Of a stretch of 35,571 nucleotides of DNA, positions 12,753 through 35,359 are shown one piece after another. The translations under genes and the position numbers were made by a program. Below the pieces are notes generated by a model, which searched no databases, was not told the origin of the DNA, and saw only the letters and a list, made by a program, of their open reading frames with translations. The DNA is from Lachnospiraceae bacterium (GTDB lineage Bacteria > Bacillota > Clostridia > Lachnospirales > Lachnospiraceae), in assembly GCA_017465475.1 (NCBI GenBank), contig JAFTWC010000054.1, positions 1 through 35,571 on the forward strand, written 5' to 3'. Each line of letters opens with the position of its first letter. Within the stretch, counting starts at the first letter, position 1.

Positions 12753-14441
12753 ATGGATTTTGATGTATTTGAAGTCGTTATTGCTTTGGCGGCAGGGTTG
12801 GGACTCTTTTTATATGGTATGAAGTTGATGAGCGAAGGCTTGGAAAAGGCAGCCGGAGCAAGACTTCGTAAGATTTTGGAGGCAGTGACTAAGAACCGTT
12901 TTCTGGGATGCTTGATGGGTATTTTGTTTACCGCTGTGGTACAATCATCCAGTGCAACTACGGTTTTGGTTGTTAGTTTTGTAAATGCCAGCTTGATGGA
13001 TTTGTTCCAGGCTGCCGGCGTTATTTTAGGTGCCAACATCGGTACAACCATTACGGCACAGCTTATTGCGTTTAACTTAAGCGATGTGGCTCCGTTCTTC
13101 TTAATCGGCGGTGTCATTATGGTTATGTTCTTTAAGCAGCCGATGGTAAAACGTATCGGAGAGGTTATCTTAGGTTTCGGTATGTTGTTCTTTGGTATCA
13201 GCGTTATGTCCGGCGGTATGGCAACTTTAAAGGAATCCGATATGATTAAGGATGTGTTAGGTTCCTTAACCAATCCGTTCATTGCAGTGTTCGTAGGCTT
13301 TATTGTTACTGCGATTTTGCAAAGTTCTTCTGCGACAGTCGGTATTGTACTTTTGATGGCATCTCAGGGATTGATTCCGCTTGAGATTTGTTGTTTCATC
13401 ATTCTTGGTTGTAATATGGGCTCCTGTGTATCCGCGCTTATTGCAAGTATCGGCGGAAAGAAGATGGCAAAGCGCGCAGCACACATTCATTTTATTGTAA
13501 ATATTATCGGTTCTGCAGTGATTATGGTTGTGTTATTCCTGGTTCAGGAGCCGATTTTGGAAGCAATTCGTTCCATTTCCACCGCGATGGGTATTGAAGA
13601 TGTGTATGTAAACGGTGTGAATGCTAAGATTGCCCGTGATGTGGCGAATACTCATCTTATTTTTAAGGTGTTCCAAGTACTGGTATGTTTCCCTCTTGTA
13701 AATCCGATTGTGAAACTTACCTACAAGATTGTGCCGGGCGAAGACAAGAAAGCAGACAATATGCATCTCGAGTATATCGGAGAGAACAGTGTATTCTCTA
13801 CTACGGCAGCACTTCCGAATATTATCGGAGAGACTACCCGTATGGCGGATATTGCCATTTCTAACTTATCGAAAGGTATTGATGTATTGTTTACCAAGGA
13901 TGAGGATGCAATTGCAGAAATATATGAAACCGAAAAATCGGTTAATTTCTTAAATGAGCAGATTACCAACTATCTTGTAAAAGCGAATCAGTTGTCACTT
14001 CCGGTGGAAGACCGAAAGCTTCTCGGCGGTTTGTTCCATGTGGTAAATGATATTGAGCGTATCGGTGACCATGCAGAGAATATGGCAGATGCGGCAACTC
14101 AATTAATTAATGATAACTTAAGTATGAGTAAGTATGCAGAAGAGCAGATTCGTGATATGTTTGAAAAAACAAAGACGTTGTTACAGTATTCTTTGGATGC
14201 GTTTGAGAAGAAACACGAAGAGCATTTACGCGATATTCTTATCTTAGAGGATGAAATCGATGAGTTAGAACGTTCCTTACAGGAAGGTCATGTAGAGCGT
14301 TTGACCAAGGGTGAGTGTGATGCGGAAACCGGTATGATTTTTACCGATGTTGTTTCCAATATTGAGCGTGTGGCAGATCATTCCACCAATATTGCGTTTT
14401 CCATTATGACGGATGTAAAGAAGCCGGACTTGAAAGATTAA
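12753..14441 (+). CDS. Na+/phosphate cotransporter with C-terminal PhoU-like domain
   Basis: 562 aa. The N-terminal half has many hydrophobic segments and the inverted NptA/PNaS-family repeat: two QSSSAT motifs at about residues 64 and 190, each near a Gly-rich segment (VILGANIGTTITAQL; FIILGCNMGSCVSAL). From about residue 340 the protein is soluble and helical, with two PhoU-like repeats (HVVNDIERIGDHAENMA; VVSNIERVADHSTNIA). It is predicted to import phosphate with sodium, with the PhoU-like part acting as an internal regulator. AGAGGAGG precedes the ATG. It lies in the same direction between the ribF and ylxM-ffh units. Confidence 0.93.
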   Translation: MDFDVFEVVIALAAGLGLFLYGMKLMSEGLEKAAGARLRKILEAVTKNRFLGCLMGILFTAVVQSSSATTVLVVSFVNASLMDLFQAAGVILGANIGTTITAQLIAFNLSDVAPFFLIGGVIMVMFFKQPMVKRIGEVILGFGMLFFGISVMSGGMATLKESDMIKDVLGSLTNPFIAVFVGFIVTAILQSSSATVGIVLLMASQGLIPLEICCFIILGCNMGSCVSALIASIGGKKMAKRAAHIHFIVNIIGSAVIMVVLFLVQEPILEAIRSISTAMGIEDVYVNGVNAKIARDVANTHLIFKVFQVLVCFPLVNPIVKLTYKIVPGEDKKADNMHLEYIGENSVFSTTAALPNIIGETTRMADIAISNLSKGIDVLFTKDEDAIAEIYETEKSVNFLNEQITNYLVKANQLSLPVEDRKLLGGLFHVVNDIERIGDHAENMADAATQLINDNLSMSKYAEEQIRDMFEKTKTLLQYSLDAFEKKHEEHLRDILILEDEIDELERSLQEGHVERLTKGECDAETGMIFTDVVSNIERVADHSTNIAFSIMTDVKKPDLKD

Positions 14442-14482
14442 AGGTCATTATAAAATTTTATTGGGATTATCAAGAAAAATAC

Positions 14483-14511
14483 TTGACAGATACATAAATA
14501 TCTGATACACT
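14483..14511 (+). promoter_or_regulatory. ylxM-ffh promoter with a palindromic spacer
   Basis: TTGACA (14483-14488), a 17-base spacer and TACACT (14506-14511). The spacer carries the inverted repeat CAGATA-CATAAA-TATCTG (14487-14504), a possible operator lying between the -35 and -10. Initiation is predicted near 14518, inside the left arm of the next hairpin. Confidence 0.75.
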
Positions 14512-14551
14512 ACCACCTGTAAAGAAAAATACTTTACAGGTGGTGTTTTTT
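14512..14551 (+). terminator. Terminator hairpin overlapping the ylxM ribosome binding site
   Basis: Perfect 13-bp arms ACCACCTGTAAAG (14512-14524) and CTTTACAGGTGGT (14532-14544) surround a seven-base loop. They are followed by G and six Ts (14546-14551), one base before the ylxM ATG. The AGGTGG in the 3' arm is the only Shine-Dalgarno for ylxM. The element can both terminate read-through from the phosphate transporter gene and mask the ribosome binding site. Confidence 0.8.
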
Positions 14552-14552
14552 G

Positions 14553-14906
14553 ATGGAAGAAGTGAATGAGCTTTTGGAACTTGCTATGCTGTACGATTTT
14601 TACGGCGAGTTGTTAAAGGAGCACAACAAGCAGATATTCGAGGACTATATTTTAAATGACCTTTCTTTGTCCGAGATTGCGGACGCGGAGGGGATTACAA
14701 GGCAAGGTGTCCACGACATGGTGAAGCGTTGCAGTAAGCAGCTTCGCGGATATGAGGAGAAACTCCATCTGGTAGAAAAGTTTAATAAAACGAAAGAGTG
14801 TGTCGAAAAGATAAATAAACTTTTAGGACACAGCTACGATACAGGGAATTTGGATGACCTAAAGGAAGCCAGAGGGTTAACCGAAGAGATTCTTAATTGG
14901 TTATAA
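14553..14906 (+). CDS. ylxM: YlxM/p13-like SRP-associated DNA-binding-type protein
   Basis: 117 aa from ATG 14553. The frame opens with a TTG one codon earlier, but that overlaps the T-tract. Residues about 20-75 form a sigma-70 region 4-like helix-turn-helix (LSLSEIADAEGITRQGVHDMVKRC), and the C-terminal half is helical. YlxM is the conserved gene before ffh in Firmicutes. In streptococci the homologue interacts with the signal recognition particle. ffh follows after nine bases. Confidence 0.92.
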   Translation: MEEVNELLELAMLYDFYGELLKEHNKQIFEDYILNDLSLSEIADAEGITRQGVHDMVKRCSKQLRGYEEKLHLVEKFNKTKECVEKINKLLGHSYDTGNLDDLKEARGLTEEILNWL

Positions 14907-31581: not shown

Positions 31582-32595
31582 ATGAAAAAAGTTACGGTTT
31601 TAGGCGCAGGTACATGGGGCGTTGCGCTTACCATATTGTTAGCCGGGAACGGTCATGAGGTGACGCTTTGGTCAAAGTTTGAAGCAGAAACCGGTGCACT
31701 TGCGGCAAATCGTAGTGAAATTAAAAATTTACCGGGAGCGGTTTTGCCGGATAGTGTGAAGCTTACCAACGATTTGGCAGAGGCGGCAGCAAACGGCCCG
31801 GACTTAATTGTAAATACAGTAATTTCTCCGAAGGTAAGAGAAGTATCGAAAGCACTTTCTTCTTATATAAAGGAAGGTACCGTAATTGTCAATGCGTCAA
31901 AGGGAATCGAACATGGTACCTTGTATACGATGACAGATGTGATTTCCCAGGAAATTCCGCAGGCAAAAGTGGCGGTGATTTCCGGACCGAGTCATGCTGA
32001 AGAAGTAAGCCGTCATATTCCGACCACGGTTGTGGCAGGTGCGGCAGAAAAAGAAGTAGCGATGTATGTTCAGGATATGTTTATGAATACCTATTTTCGA
32101 GTGTATACCAGTCCGGATGTACTTGGAATCGAAATCGGAAGTGCATTAAAGAATGTAATCGCTTTAGCTGCTGGCGCTATTGACGGATTAGGTTATGGAG
32201 ACAATACGAAAGCGGCGCTGATTACCAGAGGAATTGTAGAAATTTCCAGACTGGGTGTTGCTATGGGAGCAAGAACAGAATCTTTTGCGGGGCTTTCCGG
32301 TATTGGCGATTTGATTGTAACCTGTACCAGTAACCACAGCAGAAACCATAATGCAGGATATTTGCTGGGAAAAGGAAAATCCCTGGAAGAAGCAAAAAAA
32401 GAAGTCGGTCAGGTAGTGGAAGGTGTCAATTCCGCGCAGGCAGCTTTGGCTCTTGCTGATAAGTACGGTGTAGAGATGCCGATTGTGGAACAAGTGAATG
32501 CGGTATTGTTTGAAGATAAACCGGCAAAAGATGCGTTAAAAGAGTTGCTTGTTCGTGAAAAAGTAACAGAATATAGTTCTCTTAGTTGGGAATAA
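31582..32595 (+). CDS. gpsA: Glycerol-3-phosphate dehydrogenase [NAD(P)+]
   Basis: 337 aa from ATG 31582, five bases after AGGTGG; the GTG at 31573 overlaps that ribosome binding site. The Rossmann motif GAGTWGVAL is at the N-terminus. NASKGIEHGTL, ISGPSHAEEVSRHIPT, IGSALKNVIALAAGAIDGLGYGDNTKAALITRG and GLSGIGDLIVTCTS are the catalytic-domain signatures. It reduces dihydroxyacetone phosphate to glycerol-3-phosphate for PlsY. The gap before it holds the small inverted repeat ATGCGTT/AACGCAT (31546-31565). Confidence 0.97.
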   Translation: MKKVTVLGAGTWGVALTILLAGNGHEVTLWSKFEAETGALAANRSEIKNLPGAVLPDSVKLTNDLAEAAANGPDLIVNTVISPKVREVSKALSSYIKEGTVIVNASKGIEHGTLYTMTDVISQEIPQAKVAVISGPSHAEEVSRHIPTTVVAGAAEKEVAMYVQDMFMNTYFRVYTSPDVLGIEIGSALKNVIALAAGAIDGLGYGDNTKAALITRGIVEISRLGVAMGARTESFAGLSGIGDLIVTCTSNHSRNHNAGYLLGKGKSLEEAKKEVGQVVEGVNSAQAALALADKYGVEMPIVEQVNAVLFEDKPAKDALKELLVREKVTEYSSLSWE

Positions 32596-32619
32596 TGGGA
32601 TTCCCCTTTGGCATATACT
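32589..32619 (+). promoter_or_regulatory. Candidate sigma-E promoter of spoIVA
   Basis: GGAATAAT (32589-32596), a 15-base spacer and CATATACT (32612-32619) resemble the mother-cell sigma-E consensus (GKMATATT, 13-15 bases, CATACAnT). spoIVA is a known sigma-E target in Bacillus. The -10 falls at the start of the loop of the overlapping hairpin, and the predicted start (near 32626) is downstream of the 5' arm. Confidence 0.6.
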
Positions 32620-32647
32620 GTAACAGCAGAGCCAAGGGGGATTTTTT
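32600..32647 (+). terminator. gpsA terminator whose 3' arm holds the spoIVA Shine-Dalgarno
   Basis: ATTCCCCTTTGGC (32600-32612) pairs with GCCAAGGGGGAT (32631-32642) over an 18-base loop, with one U-G pair and one slip. Six Ts (32642-32647) follow and directly abut the spoIVA ATG at 32648. AAGGGGG in the 3' arm is the only ribosome binding site available to spoIVA. Confidence 0.8.
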
Positions 32648-34123
32648 ATGGAAACGTTTGATTTATACAAAGACATGAAGCTTCGTACCGGCGGAGAAAT
32701 CTACATAGGAGTAGTAGGGCCTGTCAGGACCGGAAAATCTACGTTTATCAAACATTTTATGGATGAGATGGTTCTTCCGGTGATTACGGAGGAGGCAGAA
32801 AAAGAGCGTGCGGTGGATGAACTTCCTCAGTCGGCACAGGGCCGCACCATTATGACTACGGAACCGAAGTTTATTCCGAAGGATGCGGCAAAGATTTCTT
32901 TTCAGGACGGAACCGGTGTAAAGATTCGTCTTATTGACTGTGTGGGATATATGGTAGAAGGGGCTGCCGGTCATATGGAGGGTGAAAAGGAACGCATGAT
33001 TAAAACACCTTGGTTTGACACGGAAATTCCGTTTACCAAAGCTGCGGAAATCGGAACAGGAAAAGTAATTAAAGAACATGCTACAGTTGCGGTACTTGTA
33101 ACCGCAGACGGAAGTTTCGGAGAACTTTCAAGAGAAAGCTATGAACTCCCGGAAGAACGAACAGTGACGGAATTAAAGCGCCTTGGAAAGCCGTTTGTTG
33201 TACTGTTGAATTCTGCAAGACCGAGAGCAACAGAAACGGAAGAATTGGCGAAAGAATTGTCGGAACGATATGATGTAACGGTACTGCCTACAGATTGTAC
33301 AAAACTGGAGAAGAACGAATTGACAAAGGTATTGGAAGAACTTTTGGCTGCATTTCCTGTTAGTGAAATGTTGTTTCGTTTACCGAAGTGGGTGGATTTG
33401 TTGGAAAACACTCACGAAATAAAGAAAGAAGCAATGGAACATGCAAAAGAGCTTATGCTTCGGAATCGTCGGATTCGGGATGTAAGGGAGCAAAAAGATT
33501 TTCCGGAAGGGACTTATTTTGAACGTATTCTACCGGCTACGGTTTATATGGAAAATGGTAAGGTTGAATACTGTTTGAATCCGAAAAAGGAATATTACTA
33601 TCATATGTTAAGTGATTTGTTAGGATGTGAAGTGACCGGAGAACGCAGGTTTTATCAAATCTTAAAAGAACTTGCAGGAAAACGTGCAGAATACGAAAAA
33701 ATTGCAGATGCCTGTGCGGAGGTGGAACAGAAAGGATATGGCGTTGTGCTTCCGGCAACCAATCAGTTGGAAATTTCAACACCGGAAATCATTAAGCAGG
33801 GTGGAAAGTTCGGTGTAAAGATTCGGGCGACAGCACCGTCTGTACATATGATTCAGGCAAATATTGTGACAGAAATTGCACCGATTGTAGGTAGTGAGGA
33901 ACAGGCAAGAGATTTGATTTCCTATATGACGAATCAGGGAGAAAACGGTGAGTCAGGATTACGTACGGCAAGTATTTTCGGGAAGACGGTAGATAAGTTG
34001 GTAGAAGAAGGCGTACATGCGAAAATCGGAAATATTAACGAGGAATGTCAAACGAAACTACAGGAGTCGATTGAAAAAATCATTAACGAAAGCAATGGCG
34101 GCGTAATTTGTTTCATTATTTAG
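32648..34123 (+). CDS. spoIVA: Stage IV sporulation protein A, spore coat morphogenetic ATPase
   Basis: 491 aa, full length. SpoIVA polymerises on the forespore outer membrane using ATP and forms the base layer of the spore coat. It shows the N-terminal METFDLYKDMKLRTGGEIYIGVVGPVRTGKST with Walker A (residues 24-32), RTIMTTEPKF, LIDCVGYMVEGAAGH (Walker B region), and the conserved C-terminus ESNGGVICFII. Its presence points to a spore-forming lineage. It is the strongest taxonomic marker in the window. There is no terminator before the next promoter. Confidence 0.98.
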   Translation: METFDLYKDMKLRTGGEIYIGVVGPVRTGKSTFIKHFMDEMVLPVITEEAEKERAVDELPQSAQGRTIMTTEPKFIPKDAAKISFQDGTGVKIRLIDCVGYMVEGAAGHMEGEKERMIKTPWFDTEIPFTKAAEIGTGKVIKEHATVAVLVTADGSFGELSRESYELPEERTVTELKRLGKPFVVLLNSARPRATETEELAKELSERYDVTVLPTDCTKLEKNELTKVLEELLAAFPVSEMLFRLPKWVDLLENTHEIKKEAMEHAKELMLRNRRIRDVREQKDFPEGTYFERILPATVYMENGKVEYCLNPKKEYYYHMLSDLLGCEVTGERRFYQILKELAGKRAEYEKIADACAEVEQKGYGVVLPATNQLEISTPEIIKQGGKFGVKIRATAPSVHMIQANIVTEIAPIVGSEEQARDLISYMTNQGENGESGLRTASIFGKTVDKLVEEGVHAKIGNINEECQTKLQESIEKIINESNGGVICFII

Positions 34124-34184: not shown

Positions 34185-34213
34185 TTGACAAAAACACAGA
34201 ATCTTGCTATAAT
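34185..34213 (+). promoter_or_regulatory. Perfect-consensus sigma-A promoter of the NlpC/P60 gene
   Basis: TTGACA (34185-34190), a 17-base spacer and TATAAT (34208-34213), with an extended -10 (TGC before TATAAT). This is the strongest vegetative promoter match in the window. Confidence 0.9.
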
Positions 34214-34282
34214 AGGCGATGTAACAAAATTTAATAAATATGTAACATTTCCATAGAGATTTTGTTTTGGAGGTACTTTTTG

Positions 34283-35359
34283 ATGAAGGTGAAGCATGGG
34301 GCGGCACTGGCACTGGTATTCGGTACAGTGATTTCGCTGATCGGACCTGCTACCACAGCAAATGCAGCTGTAGTAACAGGCGGCAATGCACTGGGTGGGT
34401 ATTCCGTTGTTTCCAACGATTTTTTTGTAAATGCTGTAGAAGAGAATAAGGATGATACAACCGAGCTTTTTTCAAAGACGTCTGTTCCGGAAGGAATTGC
34501 GTTTGCGGATGTTACAGATGCGTTAAATGTGAGAAAAGGACCGGGGACGAATTATTCCCGTGTTGGTAAGCTGGGTAAGAATGCACATTGTATTGTTGAA
34601 TCCGTAGAAAACGGTTGGGCAAAGATTACCTCCGGTAAGGTGAAGGGATATTGTTCTACCGAATACCTTATTATGGGTGAGAAAGCTGTGAAACTTGCAG
34701 AGTCTCTCGGTACTTTAACCGCTACCGTAAACAAAGGTATCATCAATCTCAATGTACGTTCCACTCCGGATACTACTGCAGATAATATCATCGCAAAAGT
34801 AAGTGGCGGAGAGAGCTTTAAGGTTGTAAAAGAAGTTGTTATCAGTAAAAATGACCCGGAAGCAAAGACGTTTGTTCAGATTCAGTGGAACTCCGATGCT
34901 GAGCAGAATGCAGAGGCATATGTAAGTTCTGAATTTGTTACTGTTGCATACAAGTACAAAGAAGCAGTAGAAAGCAGCAATTACGGTGATGGTGTGTCCA
35001 CACTTCGTGCCAACTTGCTTGACTATGCGCAGAGATTCCTCGGAACTCCGTATGTATGGGGCGGAAACAGCTTAACCAAAGGTGTAGACTGTTCCGGTTT
35101 TGTTCAGCAGGTATTTAAGGCATATGGATATTCCACTCCGAGAGTGTCCAGAGATATGGCCAGAAAGTATACTACGATTTCCAGATCTGAAGCCAAGGCC
35201 GGTGATTTGGTATTCTATCACAACTTAAAGACCGGTGTGGTTGACCATGTGGCTATTTATATGGGCAATGGTAAGATTATTCATTCTTGTAACGGAGTCG
35301 AGATTTCCAATGTAAACTATCGTACCGTTTATAAGTATGCAAGAGTTATTTGGGATTAA
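34283..35359 (+). CDS. Secreted SH3-domain NlpC/P60 peptidoglycan hydrolase
   Basis: 358 aa from ATG 34283, eight bases after GGAGGT. A Sec signal peptide (residues 1-28, cleavage predicted after ANA) is followed by two bacterial SH3 domains: one around residues 75-135 (ALNVRKGPGTNYSRVGKLG) and one around 155-220 (NLNVRSTPDTTADNIIAKV). The C-terminal NlpC/P60 domain starts at about 245 with FLGTPYVWGGNS, catalytic Cys270 in DCSGFVQQVF and His322 in DHVAIYMGNGKIIHS. It probably cleaves cell-wall peptides (gamma-D-Glu to diamino acid) in growth or separation. Its own strong promoter and terminator make it a single-gene unit. Confidence 0.94.
   Translation: MKVKHGAALALVFGTVISLIGPATTANAAVVTGGNALGGYSVVSNDFFVNAVEENKDDTTELFSKTSVPEGIAFADVTDALNVRKGPGTNYSRVGKLGKNAHCIVESVENGWAKITSGKVKGYCSTEYLIMGEKAVKLAESLGTLTATVNKGIINLNVRSTPDTTADNIIAKVSGGESFKVVKEVVISKNDPEAKTFVQIQWNSDAEQNAEAYVSSEFVTVAYKYKEAVESSNYGDGVSTLRANLLDYAQRFLGTPYVWGGNSLTKGVDCSGFVQQVFKAYGYSTPRVSRDMARKYTTISRSEAKAGDLVFYHNLKTGVVDHVAIYMGNGKIIHSCNGVEISNVNYRTVYKYARVIWD

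Follow-up and report, generated by a model that had tools for sequence, protein, structure and literature searches.

A predicted hairpin insulator superposed on a sigma-E-type promoter and the Shine-Dalgarno sequence ahead of spoIVA in Lachnospiraceae

The sporulation gene spoIVA follows the glycerol-3-phosphate dehydrogenase gene gpsA at close distance in the window analyzed here, that is, the whole stretch of DNA that makes up positions 1-35,571 of contig JAFTWC010000054.1 (Lachnospiraceae bacterium, assembly GCA_017465475.1; all coordinates are those of the whole stretch, forward strand). We consider it quite probable that the segment 32590-32647, which joins the two genes, is an insulator and a promoter superposed on one another, with transcription termination and the start site both predicted. 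A hairpin in this segment would hide the ribosome-binding site of spoIVA in any RNA that runs in from gpsA, while RNA started at the promoter between the two hairpin arms would lack one arm and be translated. This proposal draws on the layout of the segment, on calculated RNA folding, and above all on comparison across the family, where the arms co-vary and where the hairpin is found behind co-directional neighbors and is nearly absent behind divergent ones.

Results

Layout and folding of the gpsA-spoIVA junction

The stop codon of gpsA and the spoIVA ATG (32648) are separated by 52 nucleotides (nt), and these are almost fully occupied by overlapping signals (Table 1). The stem has 11 bp, including one U-G pair, and its 3' arm contains the Shine-Dalgarno (SD) sequence of spoIVA; the six Ts that follow it directly abut the ATG. 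The first C of the -10 element is also the innermost stem base, where the 5' arm ends, and the ATA of the -35 element (32592-32594), 17 nt upstream of the -10, overlaps the gpsA stop codon. A preliminary description of this DNA had reported a stem plus six Ts before the spoIVA ATG, with the SD in the 3' arm and a sigma-E-like -10 at the start of the loop, and the coordinates confirm it.

Table 1. Features of the gpsA-spoIVA junction.
Feature	Position	Strand	Basis
gpsA (glycerol-3-phosphate dehydrogenase), upstream gene from which RNA would run in	31582..32595	+	Pfam NAD_Gly3P_dh N- and C-terminal domains
-35 of the sigma-E-type promoter, GAATA	32590..32594	+	sequence; peak of ATA at 15-17 nt upstream of the -10 across the family
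gpsA stop codon, TAA	32593-32595	+	sequence
Hairpin 5' arm, TCCCCTTTGGC, within the promoter spacer	32602..32612	+	fold; family-wide co-variation of the arms
-10 of the sigma-E-type promoter, CATATACT	32612..32619	+	sequence; -10 match in 230/252 loci
Predicted transcription start region	32623..32629	+	inference from the -10
Hairpin 3' arm, GCCAAGGGGGA	32631..32641	+	fold
SD of spoIVA, AAGGGGG, within the 3' arm	32634..32640	+	sequence; opening cost 12.8 vs 1.5 kcal/mol
T6 run from stem to ATG, terminator-like tail and SD-ATG spacer	32642..32647	+	sequence
spoIVA, 491 amino acids	32648..34123	+	Pfam SpoIVA ATPase, middle and C-terminal domains

The fold of 32560-32670 has a free energy of -29.4 kcal/mol (z -2.75), equaled by two of 200 shuffles, and z is -3.9 when the 5' part of the leader alone is shuffled. 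The calculated cost of opening the SD at spoIVA is 12.8 kcal/mol in the read-through RNA compared with 1.5 kcal/mol in the promoter-started RNA, and when the start is swept from 32623 to 32631 it stays at 2.6-2.9 kcal/mol (with the 7-nt window set one base upstream of the SD). Hence the earlier claim that RNA running in from gpsA hides the SD, and that RNA from the internal promoter leaves it free, holds by calculation. The same is calculated across the family set described below: in 201 co-directional loci the mean opening cost is 12.48 kcal/mol for the upstream RNA versus 2.90 kcal/mol from the predicted start, with a difference of at least 4 kcal/mol in 170 of them, while in 16 divergent loci the means are 3.28 versus 2.04 kcal/mol and the difference reaches 4 kcal/mol in none (excluded for want of a usable -10: 18 of the 219 co-directional loci and 3 of the 19 divergent ones). 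The modeled energies support the view that the read-through RNA masks the SD at spoIVA and that the RNA from spoIVA's own promoter, with its predicted start, would be without the 5' arm.

A family-wide promoter signature and co-varying arms

SpoIVA is found in 10 of 10 genomes of the genus (the named relatives being eight 'Lachnospiraceae bacterium' records and one 'Roseburia' record), in 257 of 397 genomes of the family, and in 146 of 196 genomes sampled from the order; the genomes compared are partly drafts. We collected 305 loci, including the window's own (L001), and dropped 8 duplicates. The set comprises 42 loci from other families of the order and 255 from the window's family, 252 after removal of near-identical upstream regions; the 255 are part of the set from the 257 SpoIVA-bearing genomes, with several partial genes among those left out. 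They form a first set of 135 loci and a second, fetched later, of 120, and one script was used for both.

The -10 pattern CATA.A.T, where a match means at least five of six positions at 28-72 nt before the ATG, is present in 230 of the 252 family loci and perfect (six of six) in 173, compared with averages of 64 and 8 in shuffled upstream regions, and it lies most often 34-39 nt before the spoIVA ATG. An ATA stands 15-17 nt upstream of the -10 in 144 of the 252 loci (shuffles average 8), with 102 loci at a spacing of 16 nt, 24 at 17 and 18 at 15, and only 1-18 at each other spacing between 8 and 29. The sigma-E promoter consensus of Bacillus subtilis has a CATA-type -10 with an ATA about 16 nt upstream of it, and the genome of the window contains a sigma-E gene (363.5 bits against a curated cut-off of 348.6). 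Judged by this recurrence, the ATA together with the CATA-type -10 is a family-wide promoter signature. In Clostridioides difficile a sigma-E promoter has been mapped before both spoIVA and sipL, according to the part of the source available to us (PMC3789822).

The preliminary description had suggested that covariation of the arms be sought across Lachnospiraceae spoIVA upstream regions, and the arms do co-vary. Specifically, when the arms were swapped among 122 loci, the native combinations had a mean minimum free energy of -25.8 compared with -19.7 for the swapped ones, where the lowest of 30 permutation means was -20.6, and the mean SD pairing was 0.80 native versus 0.66 swapped (highest permutation 0.71). 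The type of 5' arm also tracks the type of SD, in that loci with a GAGG-type SD have 17 CCTCC and 6 CCCC arms and those with an AAGGGG-type SD have 6 and 88 (p=6e-11); this comparison leaves out 113 of the 230 loci, whose arms are of other types.

Dependence on the orientation of the upstream gene

If the hairpin has an insulation role it should persist only where RNA can run in. The orientation of the upstream neighbor was called by a codon score trained on SpoIVA codons, and 10 + 7 of the 255 loci had no upstream gene call and are omitted from the test. A locus was counted as having the hairpin at z<=-2 (against shuffled 5' parts) with an SD pairing of at least 0.6, a threshold that was set after both sets had been tallied. 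By this measure the hairpin is present in 155 of 219 co-directional loci and in 1 of 19 divergent loci (p=2e-8), which supports the further claim of the preliminary description that the hairpin insulates spoIVA from the RNA of an upstream housekeeping gene. It is found at 37 of 48 loci where gpsA is adjacent and at 116 of 167 where another co-directional gene is. It should be noted that the orientation pattern was noticed first in the first set and that the z measure was applied later to both sets. The mean z needs no threshold, and it is -3.31 for 119 co-directional versus -0.42 for 6 divergent loci in the first set (Mann-Whitney p=0.0017) and -3.44 for 100 versus +0.17 for 13 in the second (Mann-Whitney p=2.5e-7).

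The T-run follows the same pattern. Co-directional loci average 4.64 (first set) and 4.56 (second set) Ts in the last 7 nt, divergent loci 2.33 and 2.00, and at least four Ts are present in 137 of 153 hairpin loci versus 3 of 19 divergent loci. The divergent loci keep the -10 match in 16 of 19 cases, compared with 5.5 in shuffles, and 8 of these have an ATA 15-17 nt upstream (0.8 in shuffles). L216, L253 and L279, for example, have both the -10 and the SD but not the complementary 5' arm. When the divergent neighbors are compared with Pfam, 17 of 19 match a family (LysR regulators, 3-dehydroquinases, S-methyltransferases, RNase H and others). The ordinary genes of the window's own genome that lie 20-400 nt from their neighbors have no such orientation contrast: the hairpin threshold is passed by 21 of 458 where the neighbor is co-directional and by 3 of 90 where it is divergent.

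The orientation label switches 14 times across a tree of 195 proteins. Among nine supported independent pairs, the hairpin agrees with orientation in six, disagrees in none and ties in three (median p 0.031, range 0.008-0.25), and hairpin and T-run occur together in 16.4 versus 0.2 of 33 tree pairs. One locus without a codon-score call whose neighbor has a Pfam match to a family (L071) was taken as divergent in the tree test alone.

Rarity of the hairpin and its presence at sipL

The survey of the window's own genome covers 979 SD-bearing gene starts in 1,295,161 bases (the window and pieces of 80 other contigs). A masked SD together with z<=-2 occurs at only 48 of these starts, 15 of which also have at least four Ts in the last 7 nt; spoIVA and sipL are both among the 15. 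For co-directional genes at 20-400 nt, 10 of the 21 that pass the threshold have a T-run, to be compared with the family spoIVA loci, where 144 of 201 pass, 129 of them with a T-run. In other families of the order the picture is mixed, with 11 of 42 spoIVA loci passing.

SipL works together with SpoIVA, and the protein encoded in the window's own genome has the Pfam SipL and LysM domains. The hairpin is present at 14 of 31 sipL loci (the own genome and 30 others), and at 12 of the 14 a -10-like element lies between the arms with an ATA 16 nt upstream. Among the 17 remaining sipL loci, seven follow the preceding gene at 10-17 nt, as within an operon, and no divergent neighbor was called among the 31. 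The products of spoIVA and sipL are both needed for coat localization in C. difficile, as stated in the accessible text of PMC3789822. A long stem that covers the SD is also found in the window's own genome at the sigma gene just behind sigE (L416:2217-2297; z -5.2), with three Ts in the last 7 nt.

A possible terminator and mask

The co-directional loci bear on whether the hairpin acts as a terminator, as a mask, or as both. Those without the hairpin have longer gaps between the genes (medians 130 and 151 versus 79 and 78 nt), and a separate upstream terminator is found in 12 of 35 of them (shuffles 1.2) compared with 7 of 150 loci with the hairpin (shuffles 2.0; p=7e-6) and 5 of 27 intermediate loci. 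Longer gaps and separate terminators where the hairpin is missing speak for a terminator role. Where at least 180 nt are available upstream, 19 of 30 loci still carry the hairpin on the SD, and its retention there despite the room speaks for masking as well.

Discussion

Proposed mechanism

We propose that a polymerase arriving from gpsA copies both arms, so that the hairpin forms and would stop the polymerase at the U-run by intrinsic termination. If the polymerase passes, the long stem would hold the spoIVA SD and the read-through RNA would remain untranslated, as the calculated opening costs suggest. In the sporulating mother cell, sigma-E polymerase would start at about 32626, between the arms, and the resulting RNA would have the 3' arm only; with no stem to form, its SD would be free and SpoIVA would be made. 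The orientation test suggests that selection against run-in expression of spoIVA keeps the 5' arm and the T-run, and that behind a divergent gene the pairing is missing, with a promoter match and an SD usually still present. In broader terms, we lean toward the view that this ~60-nt superposition of terminator, SD mask and promoter is a reusable insulator of the order that is kept by selection on sigma-E genes (spoIVA and sipL), and probably on some ordinary promoters, that has been rebuilt with new arms many times, and that is dropped once read-through is impossible.

Alternative explanations

In a genome this compact, the hairpin might do no more than terminate the upstream operon, crowded onto the spoIVA leader, with the hiding of the SD as a by-product. 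The near-constant presence of at least four Ts at hairpin loci fits this explanation, as does the more frequent occurrence of a separate terminator where the hairpin is missing, but it would not account for a hairpin that stays on the SD in loci with ample space upstream, and the stem on the sigma gene behind sigE, with only three Ts, indicates that masking without a full T-run occurs too; we regard it as unlikely. It is very unlikely that the hairpin belongs to the working spoIVA mRNA, made from a promoter farther upstream, as a leader switch or translation brake. Such a brake is known from the sigG mRNA of B. subtilis (PMC5942855; see below). Against it, 230 of 252 loci carry a -10 match 28-72 nt upstream of the ATG, the hairpin is missing with divergent neighbors although 16 of these 19 loci retain the match, and no Rfam family scores above its cut-off over 32300-32900, where the sole match is mir-204 at 17 bits against a cut-off of 48.4.

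It appears highly improbable that SpoIIID or another regulator of spoIVA uses the inverted repeat as a DNA operator. SpoIIID does lower the expression of spoIVA and sipL in C. difficile, as reported in the portion of PMC3789822 consulted, but the arm sequences vary among loci with the pairing kept, and the repeat tracks the orientation of the neighbor, which would not be expected of an operator serving spoIVA. The position of the promoter, the orientation dependence and the varying arms led us to reject both the leader-switch and the operator readings. It is scarcely credible that a C-rich promoter spacer and a G-rich SD pair just by chance: arms swapped among loci still pair in part (0.66 compared with 0.80 for native arms), but the mean z of -3.44 in the second set, the arm-type association and the orientation dependence already oppose it.

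Several observations nevertheless weigh against a superposed insulator and promoter. The arms are separated by 18 nt, with a small 4-bp hairpin inside, which is long for a textbook terminator, and the hairpin was not listed by a generic terminator scan because the scan allows loops of 3-8 nt. A ribosome that ends translation at the gpsA stop codon would stand 6 nt short of the 5' arm and might slow the folding of the stem. The 3' arm hardly varies within the genus, where sliding runs of C and G, more than clean compensatory pairs, maintain the pairing; therefore the co-variation evidence stands at the level of the family. Below the hairpin threshold are 64 of the 219 co-directional loci, perhaps partly through wrong start calls, and in 23 of the 35 clearest hairpin-less co-directional loci no separate terminator was found. 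Among the divergent loci, L122 scores as a hairpin (z -3.2) and is an exception, the neighbors of L256 and L282 have no Pfam match and that of L205 a match just under the cut-off, and the neighbors of L037 (603 nt) and L261 (516 nt) are so distant that an intervening gene could have been missed. For the T-run alone the same nine tree pairs give 4.7 for, 0.0 against and 4.3 tied (median p 0.0625), which is suggestive only, and a few random pairings gave one pair against. About ten of the 17 hairpin-less sipL loci are not explained by operon position.

Relation to known systems

The masking principle itself is already known. For the lysozyme gene e of phage T4, and also for soc, 49 and I-TevI, a long RNA with an upstream start covers the initiation region by folding, and late promoters just upstream of the ribosome site of gene e yield RNA that lacks the 5' strand of the stem and is translated well, as set out in the available part of PMC3014915. 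Gene e and spoIVA are alike in that the initiation region would be masked in the long RNA and the RNA from the gene's own promoter would escape; a terminator tail is not described for gene e in that part, whereas spoIVA has a T-run after the stem, a sigma-E-type promoter, and an upkeep that depends on orientation. In B. subtilis a large hairpin has been proposed to block translation of sigG from the PspoIIG read-through RNA, a hairpin that cannot form in RNA from the sigG promoter, and the mRNA of sigG itself carries a translation brake in the form of a 5-bp hairpin at the ribosome-binding site (all from the accessible sections of PMC5942855). Like spoIVA, sigG, which lies after the spoIIG operon, is a sporulation gene with a hairpin that would mask read-through RNA, but it is another gene with another sigma factor, and a U-run, a termination role and orientation dependence are not described in those sections. 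Judged by its position, the sigma gene behind sigE in the window's own genome would be sigG, and its stem seems to correspond to the read-through hairpin of B. subtilis.

An intrinsic (Rho-independent) terminator has, like the spoIVA hairpin, a G+C-rich stem and then a U-run after the end of a gene. At spoIVA the U-run follows the stem directly and the short loop is missing; moreover, unlike in such a terminator, the 3' arm contains the SD, the U-run is the spacer between SD and ATG, and the -10 and the predicted start region lie between the arms. What appears to be new is the fusion of the mask with a terminator-like U-run, its family-wide upkeep with varying arms, and its dependence on the orientation of the neighbor. 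A literature search limited to one collection found no paper on the superposed design at spoIVA or sipL in Lachnospiraceae.

If the proposed mechanism is correct, it would show how a compact genome can silence a developmental gene next to a growth gene with no additional DNA. The orientation test resembles a natural experiment, in that the hairpin is absent at spoIVA where read-through from the neighbor is impossible, and this contrast makes selection against read-through directly testable. A caution follows for promoter studies, where changes in the promoter spacer may affect insulation and not promoter strength, and the layout offers a compact part for synthetic circuits.

Other hairpins and features

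Among spoIVA leaders from other families of the order, seven (L098-L101, L104, L168 and L173) have in common a ATGTACCCATACA-like inverted repeat between the -10 and the SD, which is a different element. Three more SD-masking stems with a T-run are present in the window's own genome, at L377:11640-11719, at L321:9780-9858 and on the reverse strand of L339 (gene 13963-14391), ahead of genes for an FMN oxidoreductase, an XRE-type regulator and a small open reading frame (ORF) without a Pfam match. By eye, each has a sigma-A-like -10 at or in the loop, and given these three the superposed layout may not be limited to sigma-E genes.

In the window itself, at 14470-14560, a very stable stem followed by a T-run masks the SD of a ylxM-type gene (PF04297, ATG at 14553; z -6.6), and by eye a TTGACA-17-TACACT promoter-like site lies upstream of the 5' arm. 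Since this site precedes the 5' arm, the gene's own mRNA would carry both arms, and the arrangement looks like attenuation or autoregulation and not like insulation. Downstream of spoIVA, a sigma-70-type promoter match of 12 out of 12 with a TG before the -10 lies at 34185-34213, ahead of an ORF at 34262-35359 whose product resembles, by eye, a secreted protein of the SH3 and NlpC/P60 type.

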